A stretch of DNA of 24,957 bases from a virus, in IMG/VR virus record IMGVR_UViG_3300030943_000160, positions 1 to 24,957 of that record; one strand, given 5' to 3'. The position numbers and the translations under genes were made by a program. Shown here piece after piece: positions 3,732 to 23,598 of this stretch. The notes beneath the pieces are model-generated. The model was not told the origin of the DNA. It worked only from the letters and a program-made list of their open reading frames with translations, and made no database searches. Each line of letters begins with the position of its first letter. Position 1 is the stretch's first letter.

Positions 3732-3846
3732 TACCGGATAGTTCGCTATCCACGCTGGCACCTCCCCAGCGACTTCCTCCTTATTTGTTTTCTTCATAGT
3801 TTCCTCCTTCTTCTTTTAGGTATCCTGCTTCGGCAGGGTACCTTTT
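3732..3846 (+). ncRNA. Putative structured small RNA with CCUCC motifs
   Basis: The interval between the promoter at 3697 and the terminator at 3818-3846 would give an RNA of about 115 nt. It contains a UUCG-capped hairpin GGATAG/CTATCC (3736-3751), a second hairpin GCTGG/CCAGC (3754-3770), a pyrimidine-rich unpaired stretch, and the UUCG-capped terminator stem. CCTCC occurs at 3761, 3776 and 3803, the last two in the unpaired stretch; these are complementary to GGAGG ribosome sites. Alternative: the minus strand carries an ORF from ATG 3797 with a strong GGAGG site, whose 36 codons before it enters the neighbouring gene look protein-like. The two readings cannot be separated from sequence alone. 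Confidence 0.35.
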
Positions 3847-3850
3847 CTTT
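3818..3850 (+). terminator. Intrinsic terminator with UUCG tetraloop
   Basis: Stem AGGTATCCTGC / GCAGGGTACCT (11 bp, one G-U pair) closed by TTCG and followed by TTTTCTTTT. The T-run is on the plus strand only. It ends the 2927 gene transcript and any small RNA before the next promoter. Confidence 0.87.
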
Positions 3851-3876
3851 TGGTCTCGTATGTTATCAAGCTGGCA

Positions 3877-3885
3877 GTATAAGTA
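3877..3885 (+). promoter_or_regulatory. GTATAAGTA phage promoter-like motif (copy 1)
   Basis: One of five identical 9-mers. It ends 48 nt before the ATG at 3934 and is preceded by AAGCTGGCA, similar to the AGCTG before copies 2 and 4. No -35 box. An inverted repeat lies just downstream. Confidence 0.65.
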
Positions 3886-3889
3886 CTTT

Positions 3890-3908
3890 ATACAAGCACC
3901 GCTTGTAT
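3890..3908. repeat. Perfect inverted repeat, possible operator or 5' mRNA hairpin
   Basis: ATACAAGC / GCTTGTAT, 8-bp arms around ACC, starting 4 nt after the promoter motif. It sits where a transcript would start, so it may be an operator for autoregulation or a stabilising 5' stem. Confidence 0.5.
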
Positions 3909-3933
3909 TTTAAATATATCTCAGGAGGCGTGA

Positions 3934-5112
3934 ATGAAATCTACCGGTCTAAAAGTATTTACAGATCCAGCAAACAAACTCCCACTCAAGGTATTCTTTA
4001 CCGACGACAATATCAAGTACTTGAACTTAGCTGACATTGCTTTTGGCCTAGGCTATGTGAAGACAGCCAAGGGAAAGAACTACATTCGCAAAGACCTAGT
4101 TGCTGCACTCATAAAATCATTGGCCATTAAGGCCGTTGATTCCACATCAGGTTCTGACCGTATCCAGGCGACTGCGGATGTTACCAAAGCCTCTGATTTT
4201 AAACATCTCTGGGTAGAGCAAGGTGACTTTTTTGACATCGCCCTGGAAGCCCGCACGGATGGTGCCAGGGCATTTAGGAAATGGGTTACACACGAAGTCC
4301 TCCCGGCTATTGCCAATAACGGCGTCTACATTGCCGACAATGCAACTGAGGAACAAATTAATCAGGCCAAGGTTTACCACATCGGCAATATCCGCAAACA
4401 CTTCGCCGACGTTCCATACGAGAACTTCAATATGGTCTATGAAGACGTACTCGGATACTACGCTAATAAGCCCGGCGCCTTTAGAAGAGAGCTGGCAACA
4501 CAAATTTCCCACGGCCTTGAAGACAAGAAGGCGGCAACATCAGACTTCATCATCCGTGCATCAGTAGACTCCCTGCTGGTTAGACTACGTGGGGAGCAGC
4601 TGAAGCTAAACAACCACGTCCACGGCGGGATCAAGGCCTACAAAACTAAGTTATTAAAAATCAAGGACAAAGTCATTGCCGAGAAAGATACTGTAATCCG
4701 CGCTCAGGTACTACAGATCACAGAGTTACAGGCTTGTGTACACCTTCCCGCTAGATCCAAGTTTAAAATGCTTCCAATTCATGGTTTCTCCCATAACCAC
4801 ATGTACTATGACATAGGAGCCCAGACGGTTAAGTCAACCGCTTACAAAGAGTGGTTGTACAGGTTTCCGTACACGTTATTGCCCTCGGCAGCTTTACTGG
4901 GATTAAAACCAGACTCCAAACTCGTTATCCACTGTGGTTTTGTTTGTATTCCCAAGTTCGACTGTCAGAACTTCTTGAAATCGATCATCGACGTCTGCGC
5001 CGAGTACTATGGTATTAATGACAACAACGTGACACTTTGTTCTGCAGAAAGATGGGGAGACTGTGCAACCTACTCTGGTGGGAAGATATACATTCATATA
5101 ACAAAAAGGTAG
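3934..5112 (+). CDS. BRO-N domain protein with RusA-like C-terminal domain
   Basis: 392 aa, start supported by AGGAGG. The N-terminal 130 residues are a BRO-N (phage antirepressor-type) DNA-binding domain; the diagnostic segment is ARAFRKWVTHEVLPAI at 111-126. Residues 140-280 are helical. The C-terminus (about 285-392) resembles RusA Holliday-junction resolvases, in which D-x-D-N-x2-K-x3-D carries the metal ligands: here FDCQNFLKSIID places Asp343, Asn346, Lys349 and Asp353, with Gln345 replacing the second Asp, and NDNN at 362 replacing the usual DD. The changes suggest a weakened or lost nuclease, or a structure-specific DNA binder. It has its own promoter motif and operator-like repeat and ends at a shared terminator. 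BRO-N is secure; the RusA assignment rests on motif order only. Confidence 0.8.
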   Translation: MKSTGLKVFTDPANKLPLKVFFTDDNIKYLNLADIAFGLGYVKTAKGKNYIRKDLVAALIKSLAIKAVDSTSGSDRIQATADVTKASDFKHLWVEQGDFFDIALEARTDGARAFRKWVTHEVLPAIANNGVYIADNATEEQINQAKVYHIGNIRKHFADVPYENFNMVYEDVLGYYANKPGAFRRELATQISHGLEDKKAATSDFIIRASVDSLLVRLRGEQLKLNNHVHGGIKAYKTKLLKIKDKVIAEKDTVIRAQVLQITELQACVHLPARSKFKMLPIHGFSHNHMYYDIGAQTVKSTAYKEWLYRFPYTLLPSAALLGLKPDSKLVIHCGFVCIPKFDCQNFLKSIIDVCAEYYGINDNNVTLCSAERWGDCATYSGGKIYIHITKR

Positions 5113-5582: not shown

Positions 5583-7823
5583 CTACACAGCTGTGCTGCG
5601 CCTTTCAGGTCGTAATTGTGAATGCGGCATCATTGCGTTATCTATATTGGCAGCGTAAGAGTCCCTTACAGACTTCTCTATCAGGTTCTTTCCAGCATCC
5701 ATCTTCTCAAGTTCAGTCATTTCACTGAGTGCAACGTTCCTTGATGCCGATGCAGACATTGCCTGAGGATTCAATCCAGCAAGCTTCTCTGTTAATAGTT
5801 CTCTGATAGCCGGCGTGGTTCCGGTCAAGAAGTTCTTTACTTCAGTTGATGACAACTTCGTCATCGCCGTAACTATCTTATCCACCATTGCCTCGGTACC
5901 TTGCTTGTAGATAGTGTCGTAGACGTCGTCTTCGTCATCAGCCTTCTTTTTCAACGTACTCTTGGGGGCGTCCTTCTTTTCCTTTTCAGGCTTCTTCTCC
6001 GGTTTGGTCGCAGGCTTCTTTGTCTCTGTCTTTGCTCCGGCGGCATCTACCTTGATGGTGATGTTACTATTACCTGCCTTAGCTGGTGTTGCGGCAGCAA
6101 CTTGTGCTTGCTGATCAGCTGCTTGTGCCTGTTGATCAGCTGCTTGTTGTTGCTGTTCTTGAGCTGCAGCCGATCCCTCTTCCGCGGTAGGCATGAGCCC
6201 AAGTTGTTGTTGCTGGGCAACAATGTTAGCCTGATAACTAGCCTGATTTTGTTGTACCATAAATTGGGTTTCGAGATTGTATAGTTGCATTCTCCGTTCA
6301 CGTTCCATGCGCTCAAATACTTCCATCTCAATTTGGACCTTCATCTTCTGTGGGTCCATTCCCAGCATTCCGTACATATAGTCATCAGATACCTTACCTG
6401 TAGCGTTCATGTTGATTATCATCTGCTTTTGCTGGATATCATCCTGCATTTTCAGATCAGCCATTTTGATGATAATCAAGTTACCTTTATCAGCTGTTGT
6501 TCTATACTCTCCACGGACAGTAGCTAATTTTTTAATCAAGAAGTTGTTCATGAAGTCAGCGAGCAACAGCCTGTAGTTAATAAATTGGTTCTCCAACGTC
6601 CTAAGGGAGATTGATGCTGCAGAGTAGCTTACTCCACCGAAAATGAATTCACGTGGTACACCTAGCCCAGCAAGGATCTCTGATTGTAATTGCTCGATTT
6701 CAGCAGTAAGCATTAACGCCCGGCCTTGTCCGCCTACGTCGATCTTGTTAACAGGAACAGGGCTGACAATCTTGTAGTTAGGGTCTTTAGCAGCCTTCTG
6801 AAGCTGCCCGGCGAGGTCAGCGGCTGTCTTATTCCACGTAGCATTTGGGTCAACAGAGTTTGTTGGTGTCAGGTAGTATACGCGCATGGGTACAATGTGC
6901 TCACGGGCAATGGCTTCCTGCGCCTGTCTCAACAGGTTTCTGTATGCTAATTGCTTCATGACATTGAGGATAAGTGGTGTACCCCAGATACTACCGTCAC
7001 CGGATTCTCCCTCACGAGAGAAGTGATAGATATTATCCTGGTTGAGAATGAGTGGTTTATTCTTCTCAGCAGCCTGACGGATCATTGCAGGAATTGCTGC
7101 ATAATCTTTAGCTGGTTTCTTGGTCTTACAGAGCTCAATAATCTTATCGGGAACAAGCCATTGATAGATGGTCTCTTGGGTAAGGGGGTTGAATTCAATA
7201 ACCATCTTGGCCGGATCCATGCGGTAGAGCTTGGACCAGCGGATGTCAGTACCATCCTTGAGGTCAGAGAAGTCTTCGTATTCACCGAAGACAAAGCAGT
7301 TGCCGTATAGCCAGTAGTCGATACCGATCTTGACCAGGAATTCGTTAATATCAAGGTAATCGAATTGGTCTTTGTAGAATGACAAAGTCGGTGAATCATC
7401 CGAATTATACGGACCGTTGTCCATGTTAGTGGCTTCTTCAAAGAGGATATCTGATACAGGGAACCTGGACATGGTATTAACAGCAGCGCCAATAAGGGAG
7501 TCGAACTTATAGAAGTAACGACACCACTTGAATATCTCAGTCATTGACTTAGGTAGTTGGTAGTCACTCAAATTCAAATACGGACTTGGATAAGGGTCTT
7601 GATCTCTGGCGTATGCTGATGCAGTCTTATGGAGAGCATCTTCCTTAGCCTCTTTTAAGAACTTGGCCTTCGCGTCGTCCACGGAGCCGAGACCGAGTAA
7701 TTGGTTTGCAACGTCAGCGTCGTCTGGGTCGTTAAACACATGAGGAAAGTCTACCTCAAAATGCTGTGATATCTCTTGTGCGGGGATTGTCACATCTTCC
7801 CCGAGGTTTATTTTTTCATCCAT
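5583..7823 (-). CDS. Portal protein
   Basis: 746 aa. Portals form the dodecameric ring at one capsid vertex through which DNA enters and leaves. Supporting segments in portal-like order: DYWLYGNCFVFGEY (169-182), a helix-rich stem region around 285-315, then GGQGRALMLTAEIEQL (364-379), AGLGVPREFIFGG (385-397) and SYSAASISLRTLENQF (399-414), which match the wing/crown region of large myophage portals. Residues about 535-640 are an unusual low-complexity extension, first Gln/Ala-rich with an AADQQAQ tandem repeat, then Lys/Glu/Pro-rich; the final 110 residues are helical. HKTAS near residue 66 fits the K-x-A pattern seen across this block and might be a processing site. The preceding small gene ends in TAATG overlap with its start; GAAGGGAAG is the ribosome site. 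Confidence 0.88.
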   Translation of the reverse strand: MDEKINLGEDVTIPAQEISQHFEVDFPHVFNDPDDADVANQLLGLGSVDDAKAKFLKEAKEDALHKTASAYARDQDPYPSPYLNLSDYQLPKSMTEIFKWCRYFYKFDSLIGAAVNTMSRFPVSDILFEEATNMDNGPYNSDDSPTLSFYKDQFDYLDINEFLVKIGIDYWLYGNCFVFGEYEDFSDLKDGTDIRWSKLYRMDPAKMVIEFNPLTQETIYQWLVPDKIIELCKTKKPAKDYAAIPAMIRQAAEKNKPLILNQDNIYHFSREGESGDGSIWGTPLILNVMKQLAYRNLLRQAQEAIAREHIVPMRVYYLTPTNSVDPNATWNKTAADLAGQLQKAAKDPNYKIVSPVPVNKIDVGGQGRALMLTAEIEQLQSEILAGLGVPREFIFGGVSYSAASISLRTLENQFINYRLLLADFMNNFLIKKLATVRGEYRTTADKGNLIIIKMADLKMQDDIQQKQMIINMNATGKVSDDYMYGMLGMDPQKMKVQIEMEVFERMERERRMQLYNLETQFMVQQNQASYQANIVAQQQQLGLMPTAEEGSAAAQEQQQQAADQQAQAADQQAQVAAATPAKAGNSNITIKVDAAGAKTETKKPATKPEKKPEKEKKDAPKSTLKKKADDEDDVYDTIYKQGTEAMVDKIVTAMTKLSSTEVKNFLTGTTPAIRELLTEKLAGLNPQAMSASASRNVALSEMTELEKMDAGKNLIEKSVRDSYAANIDNAMMPHSQLRPERRSTAV
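6101..6142 (-). repeat. 21-bp tandem repeat inside portal gene
   Basis: Two nearly identical 21-bp units (three differences or fewer by eye) encode the AADQQAQ heptapeptide twice in the low-complexity extension, a likely length-variable site. Confidence 0.7.
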
Positions 7824-7999
7824 TATTTCTTCCCTTCTACTACGGGCTTTTCTTTGGTCTCAGGTGGTTTATTTGCATTTGCTTGATTGACTATTCTGTA
7901 GGCGTCGTCAGTGTACTCAGTTAATTCCCGGAAGATTTTCATAACCGTGTTCTTATCCGCCTCGGAGATGTCAGCAAGTTTTTGTAATCTACTATCCAT
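7823..7999 (-). CDS. 58-aa protein between virion genes, unknown
   Basis: ATG at 7999 is preceded by AAGGAG at 8 nt; the TAA overlaps the portal ATG by one base (TAATG), so translation is coupled to portal. The peptide starts MDSRLQKLADISEADK and is hydrophilic and helical, ending in a Lys/Glu/Pro tail (KPPETKEKPVVEGKK). It contains a K-x-A tripeptide (QKLAD) near the N-terminus. A portal-associated or scaffold-like role is possible; no family is recognised. Confidence 0.8.
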   Translation of the reverse strand: MDSRLQKLADISEADKNTVMKIFRELTEYTDDAYRIVNQANANKPPETKEKPVVEGKK

Positions 8000-19479: not shown

Positions 19480-21120
19480 TCCACCCTCAGCCATGTAGAA
19501 CTCAATGTCCTCGTGGTAAGATCTGTTCACATTGCGGACGACGTCGAGACCGCCTACTGAGAGTAAGTATGCCATATACGCGTACACGCAGCTATGTAGA
19601 CCATCATCAGGGTAGTCTTGTGGATGTGTCAAAAATAACTCCTCGGATCTACCGTTATTAGATGTCCTATACTCTGCCTGCTCCGCAAGATGGTGATCAC
19701 GCATGAATCCCAGTTTAGCGTAGTCTGCGCCGGCCCACTCGGCCTTACGTTTATGAATCATCTGGGTAACGTAGTCCATCATTATATCTGTTCTACGTGT
19801 TTTATAAAACTGCTTGTCGTCAGCATAAACTACCTTGTCACGTTGTTGATGGGTGTAGTAGTTTACAGCAATCCTCAGACCAAAGCGCTGTCTTAATTTC
19901 TGAGCCTGTGCGTATCCAAAACCCCAATCAACTACTCCGAGATCAACATGGAATAGATCCATTAACTGACAAATGTGCTCGAGTTGCTTTTCCTGGTCGA
20001 GTTCGTTACCTGTTTCATAGCGTTTACAGTAAATCATTCTCAGCTTGTTCTCGTCAGTTAAATAGAAGATTGTTGCTACAGTGTAGGATTTACCACCAGT
20101 ACCCCAGTCGACGCCCATGTAGATCTTGGATTGAGCCAGGTGGTCTGGTGCACGATCGTATAAACAGAAGTCATTAGCCATTAACGCATCTAAGTCTGTG
20201 TCTGAAACCAACTTGTCGGCGTATTCATAACTTAATCCTAAGACCTCATTATAGAATTTAGCCATTGAGTAGGTTTGCATTTTCTGGTAAATACCTTTAC
20301 CATCCCTTGAAGTCATCTTTGCCCTTGGGGACATCATCTGGCTAATATGGAATCCCTTAAGGTCTTTACCCGGTTGGGTCTCAATCCAAACTCCCCGGCC
20401 AATGTCTGCTGTGGTTATCTCACAACCACACTTGCGACATGCCAGGAATTTTGGGGTAATATTCTTCATCCCAATAATCTGTTGGGTGTTGCAGTGGCTG
20501 CATTTCACAACCCATTCGTTTTTGGTACTGATATTCCACTTTGCTTCTATTGTATTTGATAATGTCTTAGGCGTTCCTGTAAGCCATGTCACCGGTCTCG
20601 ACGACGCGAACTGCGTCTCCTGAATTACCGGGAGCGCATCGGTGTTAATATCCTGACACTCGTCAATGTAGAGATTATCTATAGAGAGTCCGCGGATGTT
20701 ATCGCCCCGGTCAAAACAGTGGCGGAGCCATATTGTCGACCCGTTAGTATACTCGCGCATAAACACCTGGTCGGATAATGACGTATTCATAAAGAATCTG
20801 CGGACAATGTTTTCTTTGGAGTACCGCAGGAGCTTTGCCAACCTCTCTTTCGAGAAAGTCTTTACCTGCTCATTCTGTGGGGCAACATACAGTGATCTAT
20901 TAAATGGCGTCAGCAGCACGTCATTAGCCATCTTAATAGACAGCGTTGTCGACTTCTCTACCTGTCTACCAGTTTTCATTAACCCAAAGGCAATGTCGGT
21001 ATCGTAAATGGTTTTAAGATACTCACGGCCTTCAAATGAAAATGGTTTACCTTCTATTAAATATACTGCTTCGGTAAACACCGAAGGGATAATTTTATGT
21101 TCTGTTTGATTTATTGTCAT
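19477..21120 (-). CDS. terL: Terminase large subunit (ATPase-nuclease, zinc-ribbon type)
   Basis: 547 aa from ATG 21120, chosen for the AAAGG site 7 nt before it; longer starts at 21165 and 21147 lack one, and a -10 element lies within that extension. It powers DNA packaging and cuts concatemers. ATPase: Walker A KTGRQVEKST (49-58, with Glu where Gly is usual), Walker B LYIDECQD (150-157), and TGTPKT as the coupling motif. A zinc ribbon (Cys207, 210, 228, 231) separates ATPase and nuclease, as in lambda gpA-type terminases. RNase H-like nuclease: MGVDWGTGG (Asp338) and VVDWGFG (Asp398), with a late acidic DYPDDG. It stands apart from the portal block in its own unit. Confidence 0.94.
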   Translation of the reverse strand: MTINQTEHKIIPSVFTEAVYLIEGKPFSFEGREYLKTIYDTDIAFGLMKTGRQVEKSTTLSIKMANDVLLTPFNRSLYVAPQNEQVKTFSKERLAKLLRYSKENIVRRFFMNTSLSDQVFMREYTNGSTIWLRHCFDRGDNIRGLSIDNLYIDECQDINTDALPVIQETQFASSRPVTWLTGTPKTLSNTIEAKWNISTKNEWVVKCSHCNTQQIIGMKNITPKFLACRKCGCEITTADIGRGVWIETQPGKDLKGFHISQMMSPRAKMTSRDGKGIYQKMQTYSMAKFYNEVLGLSYEYADKLVSDTDLDALMANDFCLYDRAPDHLAQSKIYMGVDWGTGGKSYTVATIFYLTDENKLRMIYCKRYETGNELDQEKQLEHICQLMDLFHVDLGVVDWGFGYAQAQKLRQRFGLRIAVNYYTHQQRDKVVYADDKQFYKTRRTDIMMDYVTQMIHKRKAEWAGADYAKLGFMRDHHLAEQAEYRTSNNGRSEELFLTHPQDYPDDGLHSCVYAYMAYLLSVGGLDVVRNVNRSYHEDIEFYMAEGG

Positions 21121-21153
21121 ATGCAGCCTTTCTGTAAAAGAGTCCATATAGAC

Positions 21154-21159
21154 ATTATA
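21154..21159 (-). promoter_or_regulatory. Probable -10 element for terL
   Basis: TATAAT on the minus strand, 34 nt upstream of ATG 21120; a second TATAAT sits at 21175-21180. It lies divergent from promoter motif copy 3. Confidence 0.4.
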
Positions 21160-21201
21160 AACCATTTACACGTGATTATAGTACTAGATTGCATTTAAAC
21201 A

Positions 21202-21210
21202 GTATAAGTA
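21202..21210 (+). promoter_or_regulatory. GTATAAGTA phage promoter-like motif (copy 3)
   Basis: Preceded by TTTAAACA and ending 33 nt before ATG 21244; it drives the two-gene unit ending at the terminator at 21737. Confidence 0.65.
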
Positions 21211-21243
21211 ATCAAACAATATTAAAAGAAAGAAGGTAGGACA

Positions 21244-21537
21244 ATGAATAATCAAATGTCAAAAGAAGAAGCAGAGCAAGCTAGGAAAGAACTAGAAAAA
21301 GCAGTGAAAGCATTTAAGTTGCTAATAAAATTAGGAATGAAACCAGTAGCAAAGGAGGTAGCATTGGAGTTAATAAACACAATGGACGAGATGGTTAAAA
21401 TGACCACAGACGTAGAGCATAAAAAGGAAATTTACGGAGACTACGAAGTGAATGAAGAATTCACAGAAAAAGCAGAAAAACTATTAGCCCGGGTACAAGA
21501 ACTATCCGAGGAATTAAAAACAGCGTTATCAAAATAA
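21244..21537 (+). CDS. Small coiled-coil protein, unknown
   Basis: 97 aa; AAGGTAGG before the ATG. Almost entirely helical, charged (Lys/Glu-rich), with heptad-like spacing at 5-30 and 70-95 and no cysteine or aromatic core apart from Tyr. The codons are A-rich, as in the other genes of this region. The fold would be a dimeric helical hairpin. First gene of a short unit with the 60-aa protein. Function unknown. Confidence 0.82.
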   Translation: MNNQMSKEEAEQARKELEKAVKAFKLLIKLGMKPVAKEVALELINTMDEMVKMTTDVEHKKEIYGDYEVNEEFTEKAEKLLARVQELSEELKTALSK

Positions 21538-21555
21538 ATACAAAGGAGTGTAAGG

Positions 21556-21738
21556 ATGGCCGAAGATTTAATCGCGAAATTAAAAAGCGGTAAATTCAGA
21601 AACAGGATAGACAGTCCATATGTTCCCAGCACGGGACACATAGTAGAGATAATTAAAAGTGAATGCCCAGGCATTTCACACGACGAGTTATGGGAGAAAG
21701 TGGAAGCACTTAACCTATATTTCAACAGGGTAATATAA
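21556..21738 (+). CDS. 60-aa protein, unknown
   Basis: AAAGGAG precedes ATG 21556. The N-terminal half is basic (KLKSGKFRNR); the C-terminal half, VEIIKSECPGISHDEL...EALNLYFN, is similar in pattern to the C-terminal helices of the zinc-ribbon protein at 17135 (EVLKAEYPTIPDDTL...DDLNFVGN), so the two may share a small interaction module. The stop overlaps the start of the terminator stem. Confidence 0.75.
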   Translation: MAEDLIAKLKSGKFRNRIDSPYVPSTGHIVEIIKSECPGISHDELWEKVEALNLYFNRVI

Positions 21739-21763
21739 GTGAGACTTCGGTCTTACTTTTTTT
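21737..21763 (+). terminator. Intrinsic terminator with UUCG tetraloop
   Basis: AAGTGAGAC / GTCTTACTT stem (one G-U pair), TTCG loop, seven T. Confidence 0.87.
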
Positions 21764-21878
21764 CGGACAGACGCCGTATACGCGGTATATGAGATGTATA
21801 TACATGATTGTATATAGCGCGAAAGCGTATTTTATAAACTGGCAATAGCCAGAGAAGGGAGTTAGTTTATGACTAACT
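21764..21878 (+). promoter_or_regulatory. Structured leader of cassette 1, with start codon in a hairpin loop
   Basis: A conserved CGGACAGA block is followed by an AT-rich palindromic stretch with the 12-bp palindrome ATGTATATACAT (21794-21805), hairpin A CGC-GAAA-GCG (21818-21827), hairpin B CTGGC-AATA-GCCAG (21839-21852), a GGGAG ribosome site, and hairpin C AGTTAGT-TTATG-ACTAACT (21860-21878), whose loop holds the ATG. The same parts in the same order precede the gene at 22311. Confidence 0.7.
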
Positions 21879-22153
21879 TACAGAAAGCACGCATCATACA
21901 AGATGTCGTGAACCACTATGTGGAGGGAGCATCGAAGCTTCTTTCATACACAGATCACCGTTACACAACGGTGGAACACGCGGACGTCGGATATGACGTA
22001 ACCGCAAGCGTTGTCGCAAAGGGCAACGAATTCATTACAACGGTCGAATCAACATTCGGCTGCGGTACAGGTAGCCCCAACAGAAAACAATCTGTTGATG
22101 GTGAGATTGAAACAGCAATTGGAATGCTGTTCCAATTAGTAGAAAACGCTTAG
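21869..22153 (+). CDS. Cassette 1 protein, paralog of the 98-aa protein downstream, unknown
   Basis: 94 aa. It shares with the protein at 22311 the start MTN, the core YDVT, a Cys pair in FGCGTGS (CGCQPG in the other) and the ending LF-x4-NA; overall identity is low, about a quarter by eye. The fold is probably alpha-beta4-alpha. The GCG pair of cysteines is a single CxC-type site. Codons 2-4 (ACT AAC) pair with the ribosome-site flank, and the stop TAG lies in the loop of AACGC-TTAG-GCGTT. A terminator follows at once, so it is a one-gene unit. Confidence 0.82.
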   Translation: MTNLQKARIIQDVVNHYVEGASKLLSYTDHRYTTVEHADVGYDVTASVVAKGNEFITTVESTFGCGTGSPNRKQSVDGEIETAIGMLFQLVENA

Positions 22154-22161
22154 GCGTTATA

Positions 22162-22198
22162 GAAGATAAGGGTTACACCTTAGCTTCTTTTTTTTTTT
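22162..22198 (+). terminator. Intrinsic terminator
   Basis: GAAGATAAGG / CCTTAGCTTC stem (10 positions, one mismatch) followed by eleven T. Confidence 0.88.
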
Positions 22199-22320
22199 CG
22201 GACAGAGGCTGAATATACACTATATGCATTGTATATACATATAGTGTATATAACGCGAAAGCGTATTTATAGCGCCAATAGGCGTACCCGAGAGGGAGAA
22301 AGGAGTTAGTATGACTAACT
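22199..22320 (+). promoter_or_regulatory. Structured leader of cassette 2, with start codon in a hairpin loop
   Basis: Same order of parts as cassette 1: CGGACAGA, AT-rich inverted repeat (22213-22251), hairpin A ACGC-GAAA-GCGT (22253-22264), hairpin B CGCC-AATA-GGCG (22273-22284), an AAAGGAG ribosome site, and hairpin C AGTTAGT-ATG-ACTAACT (22304-22320), in which the ATG is the whole loop. Hairpin B has changed bases on both arms relative to cassette 1 but keeps pairing and the AATA loop. Confidence 0.7.
22213..22251. repeat. Perfect 14-bp inverted repeat, AT-rich
   Basis: ATATACACTATATG and CATATAGTGTATAT around an 11-nt loop that itself contains TGTATATA. It may be an operator or a promoter element for cassette 2, or could extrude as a cruciform. 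Confidence 0.8.
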
Positions 22321-22607
22321 CAATTAAGAAAGAAATCGTTAGCGAAATTATCGCTAATGCAAGTGACGGAAGTCACAATACACAATACGGCACAAATGTG
22401 CTGTATGCAACGTCCTTCAAAAGAGAGGATGGACAAGGTGACTACGATGTCACCGTGAAGTTCATCATCCACAGTGATGATGAGTTCGAGATTGAAACCA
22501 CAACATGTGGTTGTCAACCAGGATACATACCCATGACAAAGTCATGGACAGAAACAGATATCATGAGAGCAGTTCAAATACTGTTTTCACAGATCGATAA
22601 CGCGTAA
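22311..22607 (+). CDS. Cassette 2 protein, paralog of the 94-aa protein upstream, unknown
   Basis: 98 aa; AAAGGAG at 5 nt. It aligns with the 94-aa protein through MTN, YDVT, TTTCGCQPG and LFSQIDNA. It has a similar length and predicted alternation of helix, four strands, helix. The stop TAA is within the GNRA-type loop of ACGC-GTAA-GCGT (22600-22611). The regulatory shell is better conserved between the two copies than the proteins, implying that control matters more than exact sequence or that the proteins evolve fast against host targets (inference). Confidence 0.82.
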   Translation: MTNSIKKEIVSEIIANASDGSHNTQYGTNVLYATSFKREDGQGDYDVTVKFIIHSDDEFEIETTTCGCQPGYIPMTKSWTETDIMRAVQILFSQIDNA

Positions 22608-22612
22608 GCGTA

Positions 22613-22642
22613 AAAGGTGATGCTTAGGCATTATCTTTTTTT
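22613..22642 (+). terminator. Intrinsic terminator
   Basis: AGGTGATGC / GCATTATCT stem with two G-U pairs and a TTAG loop, followed by seven T. Confidence 0.82.
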
Positions 22643-22661
22643 CCTACCCTGACAATAAGCT

Positions 22662-22670
22662 GTATAAGTA
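22662..22670 (+). promoter_or_regulatory. GTATAAGTA phage promoter-like motif (copy 4)
   Basis: Preceded by AATAAGCT; it ends 45 nt before the 9-codon leader ORF at 22716. Confidence 0.65.
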
Positions 22671-22715
22671 ATATACCAAGAAGAAATCTATCCGTCGAAA
22701 GGATGTAAGGAAAAT

Positions 22716-22745
22716 ATGAAAGAAGAAAGAGGTGAAGAGATATGA
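22716..22745 (+). CDS. Possible 9-aa leader peptide
   Basis: ATG with AAGGA upstream encodes MKEERGEEI and stops in TGA overlapping the next ATG (ATGA). It may couple or tune translation of the 72-aa gene, or simply be the stretch carrying its GAGGTGA ribosome site. Confidence 0.35.
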   Translation: MKEERGEEI

Positions 22746-22960
22746 CGACAACAACAGTCATGGACATAACTAAGCTACTTAAAGAAGTAGTGTGTAATGA
22801 AATAAACACAGCACTGAGAGTGAAACTACTCAGTAAGGAAAATCAAGAAAAGATTGTAGGAATGACACGCGAAGAAGCGTACACATTCATACTAACGTTA
22901 ATGAGAGACACAATTGACACTGACCTGAGAATGATGGCAGTCAAAAACCGTGTAAATTAA
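22742..22960 (+). CDS. Unknown 72-aa protein
   Basis: GAGGTGA precedes ATG 22742. A helical, charged protein with no domain I recognise; the middle reads EKIVGMTREEAYTFILTLMRDT. Codons are A-rich, like those of the nearby accessory genes. It is the only full-size gene of a unit bounded by promoter motif copy 4 and the terminator at 22962. Confidence 0.78.
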   Translation: MTTTTVMDITKLLKEVVCNEINTALRVKLLSKENQEKIVGMTREEAYTFILTLMRDTIDTDLRMMAVKNRVN

Positions 22961-22961
22961 A

Positions 22962-22988
22962 AGAGAGGTTTTTACCCTCTCCTTTTTT
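22962..22988. terminator. Intrinsic terminator between convergent genes
   Basis: GAGAGG / CCTCTC stem followed by CTTTTTT on the plus strand; it faces the minus-strand gene ending at 22990. Confidence 0.78.
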
Positions 22989-22989
22989 A

Positions 22990-23598
22990 TTAATCCCTAT
23001 CAAATCTTCCTCGTGGTTCCTTAGGTGTCCACTTTCTGATTAGTGAATCAAGTGCTTCTACAGGAAGGTCTACGTTTCCTTTTAAGGACTGTAGGTGTTT
23101 GTAAACCTGTTCTTTTACTTCCGGGCTAGAACTTGTCACACCTTTAGTTAAACCATCTAGGTCTCTGTACGTGTTCATGACAATATTCTGTTTTACCTTA
23201 TCACCTTTGAACATCACATGGTCCAAGGGGAACATCGCCTCGAATGCATCCCGCTTTGATTTCTTGTCGACATCAATAAACTCTTGAACTGTTTTTCCAA
23301 GGCCACGAAGATTTGCAGTCTCCGCAGCGTACGACTTCTGCTTTGCCAGGAAGTTACGGATTACACCGTTCTTACCACCCAGGCCAAGTGCGAGTCCTCC
23401 ACCAACAGCGAGGGTACCAAGGAGCATATTCGCTGTCCTTCGTGATTCGCCTTCATCTTTCTTTTCGCCAATATAAACCTCTGCAAAGCGCTCCATGTCG
23501 GCGTTGTCAACGGCTGACAACTTTTCAGCCCAGGCATCAGCAAGTGAGTTTATAGGGTCGTTATCGTAATTGCCTATCAAGGCTAATTTTTCTATCAT
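22990..23598 (-). CDS. Virion-type protein with DMExxAE leader, isolated among accessory genes
   Basis: 202 aa from ATG 23598, chosen because a GGAG/GGAAG site precedes it and the longer frame would run through the promoter on the other strand. N-terminus MIEKLALIGNYDNDP...NADMERFAEVY resembles the leaders of the virion-block proteins (DMEKFASEV, DMEVLAAEL) and includes EKLA. A Gly/Leu-rich hydrophobic helix follows (about 61-77, MLLGTLAVGGGLALGLGG), then a basic helical domain ending FDRD. It is probably a virion protein displaced from the block. Confidence 0.78.
   Translation of the reverse strand: MIEKLALIGNYDNDPINSLADAWAEKLSAVDNADMERFAEVYIGEKKDEGESRRTANMLLGTLAVGGGLALGLGGKNGVIRNFLAKQKSYAAETANLRGLGKTVQEFIDVDKKSKRDAFEAMFPLDHVMFKGDKVKQNIVMNTYRDLDGLTKGVTSSSPEVKEQVYKHLQSLKGNVDLPVEALDSLIRKWTPKEPRGRFDRD

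Follow-up and report, generated by a model that had tools for sequence, protein, structure and literature searches.

Why should two neighbouring small genes of a DNA phage each place the start codon in the loop of a perfect hairpin? The question is raised by a single virus record of 24,957 bases, analysed over its whole length and referred to here as the window. Its gene content includes a tailed-phage terminase, a portal, a fragment of the beta' subunit of a multisubunit DNA-dependent RNA polymerase and an antirepressor-like protein. The two genes, U1 (21869-22153, + strand, 94 aa) and U2 (22311-22607, + strand, 98 aa), are tandem paralogues flanked by minus-strand genes and are 28% identical in protein sequence (E 2e-5) and 46% identical in nucleotide sequence. 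A first-pass annotation interpreted the two hairpins as translational control through sequestration of the start codon by a protein, an RNA or temperature. From the analysis presented here, the start-codon hairpin is one link among about 15 in each transcript, and the earlier observation was right but too small.

The U1 and U2 genes

U1 and U2 are best explained as monocistronic phage genes. Homologues were found neither in viral contigs, phage records and genome contigs nor in 49 related contigs. The 18 viral-contig stretches with a tighter form of the start-hairpin pattern contained no U1 or U2 homologue (tblastn, E 1), and a looser exact pattern, also searched in viral contigs, produced no relatives among the matches listed. 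Dense local hairpins throughout the coding RNA are a trait of RNA phage genomes and are present in both genes. The proteins expected of an RNA phage (Leviviricetes) genome or remnant were not found: U1, U2 and their small neighbours have no Pfam or PHROGs match to an RNA-dependent RNA polymerase, maturation or coat protein, and the window contains the DNA-phage terminase, portal and beta' fragment named above.

Start-codon hairpins

Both start-codon stems are perfect: AGTTAGT-TTATG-ACTAACT in U1 (21860-21878, + strand) and (G)AGTTAGT-ATG-ACTAACT(C) in U2 (22303-22321, + strand), where the loop is exactly ATG. From shuffles of the window, 0.01 such sites are expected by chance. As first described, the stem overlaps codons 2 and 3 as well as the 3'-terminal bases of the ribosome site, and the element is kept intact between proteins that share about a quarter of their residues. 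The start hairpins are probably under selection.

With flanks included, the calculated energies are -8.1 kcal/mol for U1 and -8.7 kcal/mol for U2, compared to -9.5 kcal/mol for the MS2 coat initiator hairpin in the same program at 37 C. Translation from the MS2 coat hairpin is saturated, such that a weaker hairpin does not yield more protein (PMC9894550), and in the RNA phage M the lysis start codon is located atop a weak stem (PMC3561173). Since the U1 and U2 hairpins are less stable than the MS2 coat hairpin, which is itself fully translated, they are predicted to be permissive. From the sequence and the computed energy, both genes have the features of a coat-type initiator, with the AUG in the loop, the Shine-Dalgarno sequence at the base and a stability predicted to be permissive. 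The sequestration proposal was correct with respect to the stems, which are real, but its off-switch is unsupported at a stability below that of a fully translated hairpin. As the start hairpins are also part of an end-to-end array, there is a simpler reading than a switch confined to the start codon.

No evidence was obtained for temperature control. An Rfam search of positions 20900-23300 returned three weak matches, all far below gathering scores, with no thermometers (ROSE, FourU and relatives) and no other credible family among them. Control of the start hairpin by a protein ligand is possible; the conserved sequences of the 5' hairpin, the start stem and the stop stem would accommodate a specific ligand.

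Hairpins with a GTTAGTNNNNACTAAC stem and varying loops repeat between genes in four unrelated virus contigs (L004, L024, L106 and L224). These were considered as relatives and rejected, being intergenic and unrelated to U1 and U2; that their stem is also the stem of the start hairpins is probably a coincidence.

An end-to-end array of hairpins

The whole U1 and U2 transcripts are a run of hairpins, with z-scores of -10.2 and -12.8, respectively, against dinucleotide shuffles. Approximately 15 short hairpins per transcript occupy the 5' end, leader, start, coding sequence, stop codon and terminator, and about 60% of the coding bases are paired in the predicted folds of the two units. In U1, a hairpin with a GAAA loop (21817-21828, + strand, -4.5 kcal/mol) is placed, putatively, at the 5' terminus of the message or close to it. 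The leader hairpin that follows, CTGGC-AATA-GCCAG (21839-21852, + strand), has a U2 counterpart, GCGCC-AATA-GGCGT (22272-22285, + strand), that keeps the loop and replaces the stem. U2 also has an AT-rich inverted repeat of 17 bp (22213-22251, + strand) upstream of the element that it shares with U1.

The coding sequences contain about 10 hairpins in U1 (codon-shuffle z about -6) and about 11 in U2 (z -4.8 to -6.4, depending on the null). Examples with perfect 7-bp stems are found in U1 at 21956-21973 and 22078-22097 (both + strand), the second of which matches the place of a perfect 7-bp hairpin in U2 (22531-22547, + strand) with a different stem. The stop codons are also within hairpin loops, TAG in AACGC-TTAG-GCGTT for U1 (22145-22158, + strand) and TAA in the GTAA loop of ACGC-GTAA-GCGT for U2 (22600-22611, + strand). 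Each unit ends in a terminator hairpin with a T run (22161-22198 and 22612-22645, + strand).

Structure beyond protein and codon needs

The array exceeds what the protein sequence and codon usage require. When synonymous codons were shuffled within each gene, z-scores of -5.9 to -7.2 were obtained for U1 and -5.0 to -6.4 for U2, the ranges representing the spread over shuffle samples and span limits. Shuffles that keep both the codons and the dinucleotide counts gave -8.2 and -4.8, respectively. By the same computation, segments of MS2 range from -1.8 to -5.9 and those of Qbeta from -2.7 to -5.5, while 80 windows of T7 have a mean of -0.36 and a minimum of -3.1. In codon-shuffle z and in perfect 7-bp stems, U1 and U2, along with a gene of contig L219 described below, are above almost every segment of MS2 and Qbeta. 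When 194 ORFs from the U1/U2 phage and two related phages were surveyed, U1 was ranked first and U2 fourth, and the ranks between them belong to the array of contig G001. Arrays were separated from GC-rich background by the density of perfect stems and by the GC-corrected local folding energy; a count of hairpins of at least 5 bp in predicted folds did not separate the two.

The neighbouring small genes of the window (21244-21738 and 22742-22960) are mildly structured, with codon z-scores of -3.9 for p60, -3.1 for p72 and -2.9 for p97. Given these mild values, any general pressure from RNases would need to single out certain messages.

Conserved hairpin positions and wobble pairs

The positions of the hairpins are kept between the paralogues. 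In the codon alignment, the hairpin centres are no more than 3 nt apart in 7 of 10 cases (p 0.0015), with stems that are mostly different. When only internal hairpins are considered, 5 of 8 centres agree to the same tolerance (p 0.013), a test that weakens with wider tolerance (p 0.08 within 6 nt). The comparison is a limited form of a covariation test, covering two paralogues. One extra U2 hairpin falls at the point where U1 is shorter by three codons. A U2 hairpin (22437-22454, + strand) covers the codons of a conserved YDVT sequence, and U1 has a hairpin in the same place; the amino acids are identical, the synonymous codons differ, and each set of codons pairs with its own diverged partner arm. 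Sequence, and not place alone, is kept in three elements, namely the 5' hairpin, the start stem and the stop stem.

The strand on which the structure acts was approached by counting G-T versus A-C oppositions in stems found without strand preference. The GT:AC count is 9:2 in U1 and U2, 20:5 over three arrays (p 0.004) and 25:6 with L277 included, a sense-strand G-U bias that is weak in each array taken singly. Neither MS2 (14:19) nor Qbeta (22:17), in which both strands are used, is biased; a slight GT excess of the same sign is present in T7 (48:31) and in the rest of the window (44:38). The bias favours a function of the sense RNA, and the difference between U1/U2 and the two RNA phages suggests that the sense strand alone is selected.

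Upstream elements and transcript starts

Both U1 and U2 are preceded by TTTTTTTCGGACAGA and by TGTATATARCGCGAAAGCG. The shared upstream element reads TGTATATA-GCGCGAAAGCG at U1 (21809-21827, + strand), where it is a possible promoter that runs into the first hairpin, and TGTATATA-ACGCGAAAGCG at U2 (22245-22263, + strand). Within the window it matches only twice, once upstream of each gene (0.02 expected). The RNAs of U1 and U2 are predicted to start within a few bases of GCGAAAGC.

Another motif, GTATAAGTA, occurs five times in the window, always on the + strand (3877, 16681, 21202, 22662 and 23627; 0.14 expected), and every copy is shortly upstream of a + strand gene. It is likely a phage promoter class; U1 and U2 are without it and share the different element given above. 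In contig L277 (IMGVR_UViG_3300035181_001203), four identical promoter-like copies of TGTTATAATATATATG (0.01 expected) are each directly followed by a hairpin, as expected if the mRNAs begin with a stem. The four TGTTATAATATATATG units extend over 5648-7960, and two of them carry hairpin-rich genes. In a search for an antisense RNA gene, promoter-like sites were no commoner than in shuffles.

Hairpin-rich genes in other contigs

Because homologues of U1 and U2 were not found, relatives of the phage were collected by means of terminase and RNA polymerase and scanned for local structure. The survey is non-random, with relatives picked by kinship and other contigs by hairpin pattern. Comparable arrays were identified in at least three other RNA-polymerase-related phage contigs (G001, L219 and L277) and in one contig outside this group (L108). 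Within the searches made, the proteins of the hairpin-rich genes are unrelated to each other.

G001 (IMGVR_UViG_3300000227_000004) has a strong coding-sequence array at the contig end. In L219 (IMGVR_UViG_3300025687_000237), a 144-aa gene with a codon z of -8.8 has thirteen stems of 7-17 bp, all perfect or almost so, over about 530 bases, leader and terminator hairpins included, and its start region is unpaired despite the strong array. A + strand ORF of L219 was rejected as the antisense of this gene. L277 contains hairpin-rich genes of 63 and 96 aa (z -6.2 and -5.3, respectively). L108, from the pattern-selected contigs, has a hairpin-rich 109-aa gene (3751-4080, + strand, z -5.6); since it is outside the group, the trait extends beyond phages that carry the polymerase. 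The L108 gene sits upstream of a 490-aa gene that resembles a large terminase by eye.

On contig IMGVR_UViG_3300000227_000004, the hairpin-rich stretch L158 1-1420 (- strand) contains a sigma-region-2-like gene of 114 aa and a gene ending in AP repeats. Ribosome sites in this stretch are inside CCCTTAA(A)GGAGGG hairpins, and an ATG is paired in GCGCAT...ATGCGC. A gene of L193 (8286-8678, - strand) is moderately hairpin-rich (z -4.1), whereas its apparent homologue by eye in L277 (6910-7314) is not (z -1.3), so that a gene family may acquire or shed such structure. First-pass structure matches in L125, L124 and L123 proved to be isolated terminators or extended inverted repeats rather than arrays.

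Encoded proteins

AlphaFold models of both U1 and U2 have an alpha-beta-beta-beta-alpha order, which is that of dsRNA-binding domains (dsRBDs). The models were calculated from two-sequence alignments with low confidence (pLDDT = 53 and 57) and are not independent of each other. Among the top matches in fold searches were the dsRBD of plant DRB7.2 and chains of the ribosome-hibernation factor HPF; no match reached E 0.01. By sequence, no Pfam family, dsRBDs included, matched up to E 1, and the best match in a PDB profile search had an E of 0.06, to unrelated molecules. The modelled topology is a weak, low-confidence hint of a dsRBD-like protein. On inspection, the L219 and G001 proteins had no such topology; one G001 protein resembles sigma region 2 (E 0.001, below the Pfam cut-off).

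Explanations of the array

The reading that we favour, with a little less than even confidence, is that U1 and U2 encode selected, nuclease-shielded mRNAs built as a chain of hairpins with a permissive start hairpin. The whole mRNA would be selected as a series of short local hairpins, from a probable hairpin at the 5' end to the terminator, which would leave ribonucleases almost no single-stranded entry site. The message would then be compact and would persist in the presence of active RNases of host or phage. In bacterial mRNA, a 5' hairpin can be stabilising and terminators protect 3' ends (PMC3997798). Like that of the MS2 coat gene, the start hairpin may have its stability set at a permissive level, such that it fits the chain and translation stays on. 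The mild structure of the neighbouring genes and the unstructured L277 homologue of the L193 gene count against this reading. Binding of the hairpins by the U1 and U2 proteins may occur as well.

Such binding could instead be the main role of the hairpins. In an autogenous RNA-protein complex, which we regard as rather improbable though the main rival, the U1 and U2 proteins would bind the hairpins of their own messages, either as feedback at the start hairpin or in coating or packaging of the RNA. The dsRBD order of both models, the presence of DRB7.2 and HPF among the top fold matches and the three elements kept in sequence as well as in place are consistent with such a complex, but model confidence is low, the models are not independent and no fold match attains E 0.01. 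Furthermore, the internal loops have no common motif, and the proteins of L219 and G001 are without the topology, one of the latter being sigma-region-2-like. The regulated switch of the first-pass annotation, with the start codon sequestered under control of a protein, small RNA or temperature, is unlikely. It would account for a perfect conserved stem whose loop contains the ATG and whose base holds the ribosome site; however, the stability is the same as or below that of the fully translated MS2 coat hairpin, the start hairpin is 1 of about 15, the L219 array is strong though its start region is unpaired, and Rfam gave no match above chance.

Local folding might keep sense and antisense RNA apart, if late minus-strand transcripts cross U1 and U2 or if the RNA is copied as in RNA phages. 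The location of the two + strand genes between minus-strand genes agrees with this, and RNA phage replication requires that the RNA be strongly structured throughout, so that no duplex forms (PMC5362092). We nevertheless consider it very unlikely because of the wobble bias, present in U1 and U2 and absent from MS2 and Qbeta. In addition, the other + strand genes so placed do not form arrays, the L219 gene belongs to a run of same-strand genes, and no RNA replicase was seen. The least likely origin is mutational. Template switching during replication is a known mutagenic mechanism that perfects quasi-palindromes, and it could produce the many perfect stems with no RNA function; yet the arrays are confined to a few small genes per genome and have the G-U wobble bias, and this origin is disfavoured because positions are conserved with changed stems.

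Relation to known systems and significance

The MS2 coat initiator hairpin resembles those of U1 and U2 in the GGAG at the base of the 5' arm, the AUG loop and a similar stability, and may be compared as GAGUU.GAAGC-AUG-GCUUC.AACUU in MS2 versus GAGUUAGU-AUG-ACUAACUC here. MS2, however, is a member of the Leviviricetes with an RNA genome and a replicase, whereas U1 and U2 belong to a double-stranded DNA tailed phage and are unrelated to coat protein in family searches. The MS2 and Qbeta genomes likewise have coding sequence chosen for local folding with comparable hairpin coverage; in U1, U2 and L219, by contrast, the trait is limited to single small genes and has a sense-strand wobble bias. 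The leader stabilisers of ompA, papA and aprE share a hairpin at or near the 5' end, in the position predicted for U1 and U2, but consist of one leader hairpin rather than a structured coding sequence. Type I toxin mRNAs are also small tandem genes with structured mRNA and a paired start region. Unlike these toxins, the U1 and U2 products are 94-98 aa and not hydrophobic, and the structure spans the whole coding sequence; no antisense antitoxin gene was seen. No description of such hairpin-chain genes was found in open-access papers.

We tentatively suggest, as a possibility that is still doubtful, that DNA phages carry a recurring class of hairpin-chain genes, in which a small orphan gene has its entire mRNA, the coding part as well, selected for RNA structure. 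If so, the message would be an RNA object that still codes: it could form a particle coated with protein, divert host RNA sensors or nucleases as a decoy, or be an ultra-stable message. In RNA viruses, coding RNA selected for structure throughout is well known and is said to be required for replication. Stronger structure in single small genes of DNA phages raises the question of what else selects for such RNA. As duplicates with strongly diverged sequences and a largely common hairpin layout, U1 and U2 provide a clean test system, and local structure offers a homology-free route to genes of this kind among the small genes of phages, most of which are without a known function.
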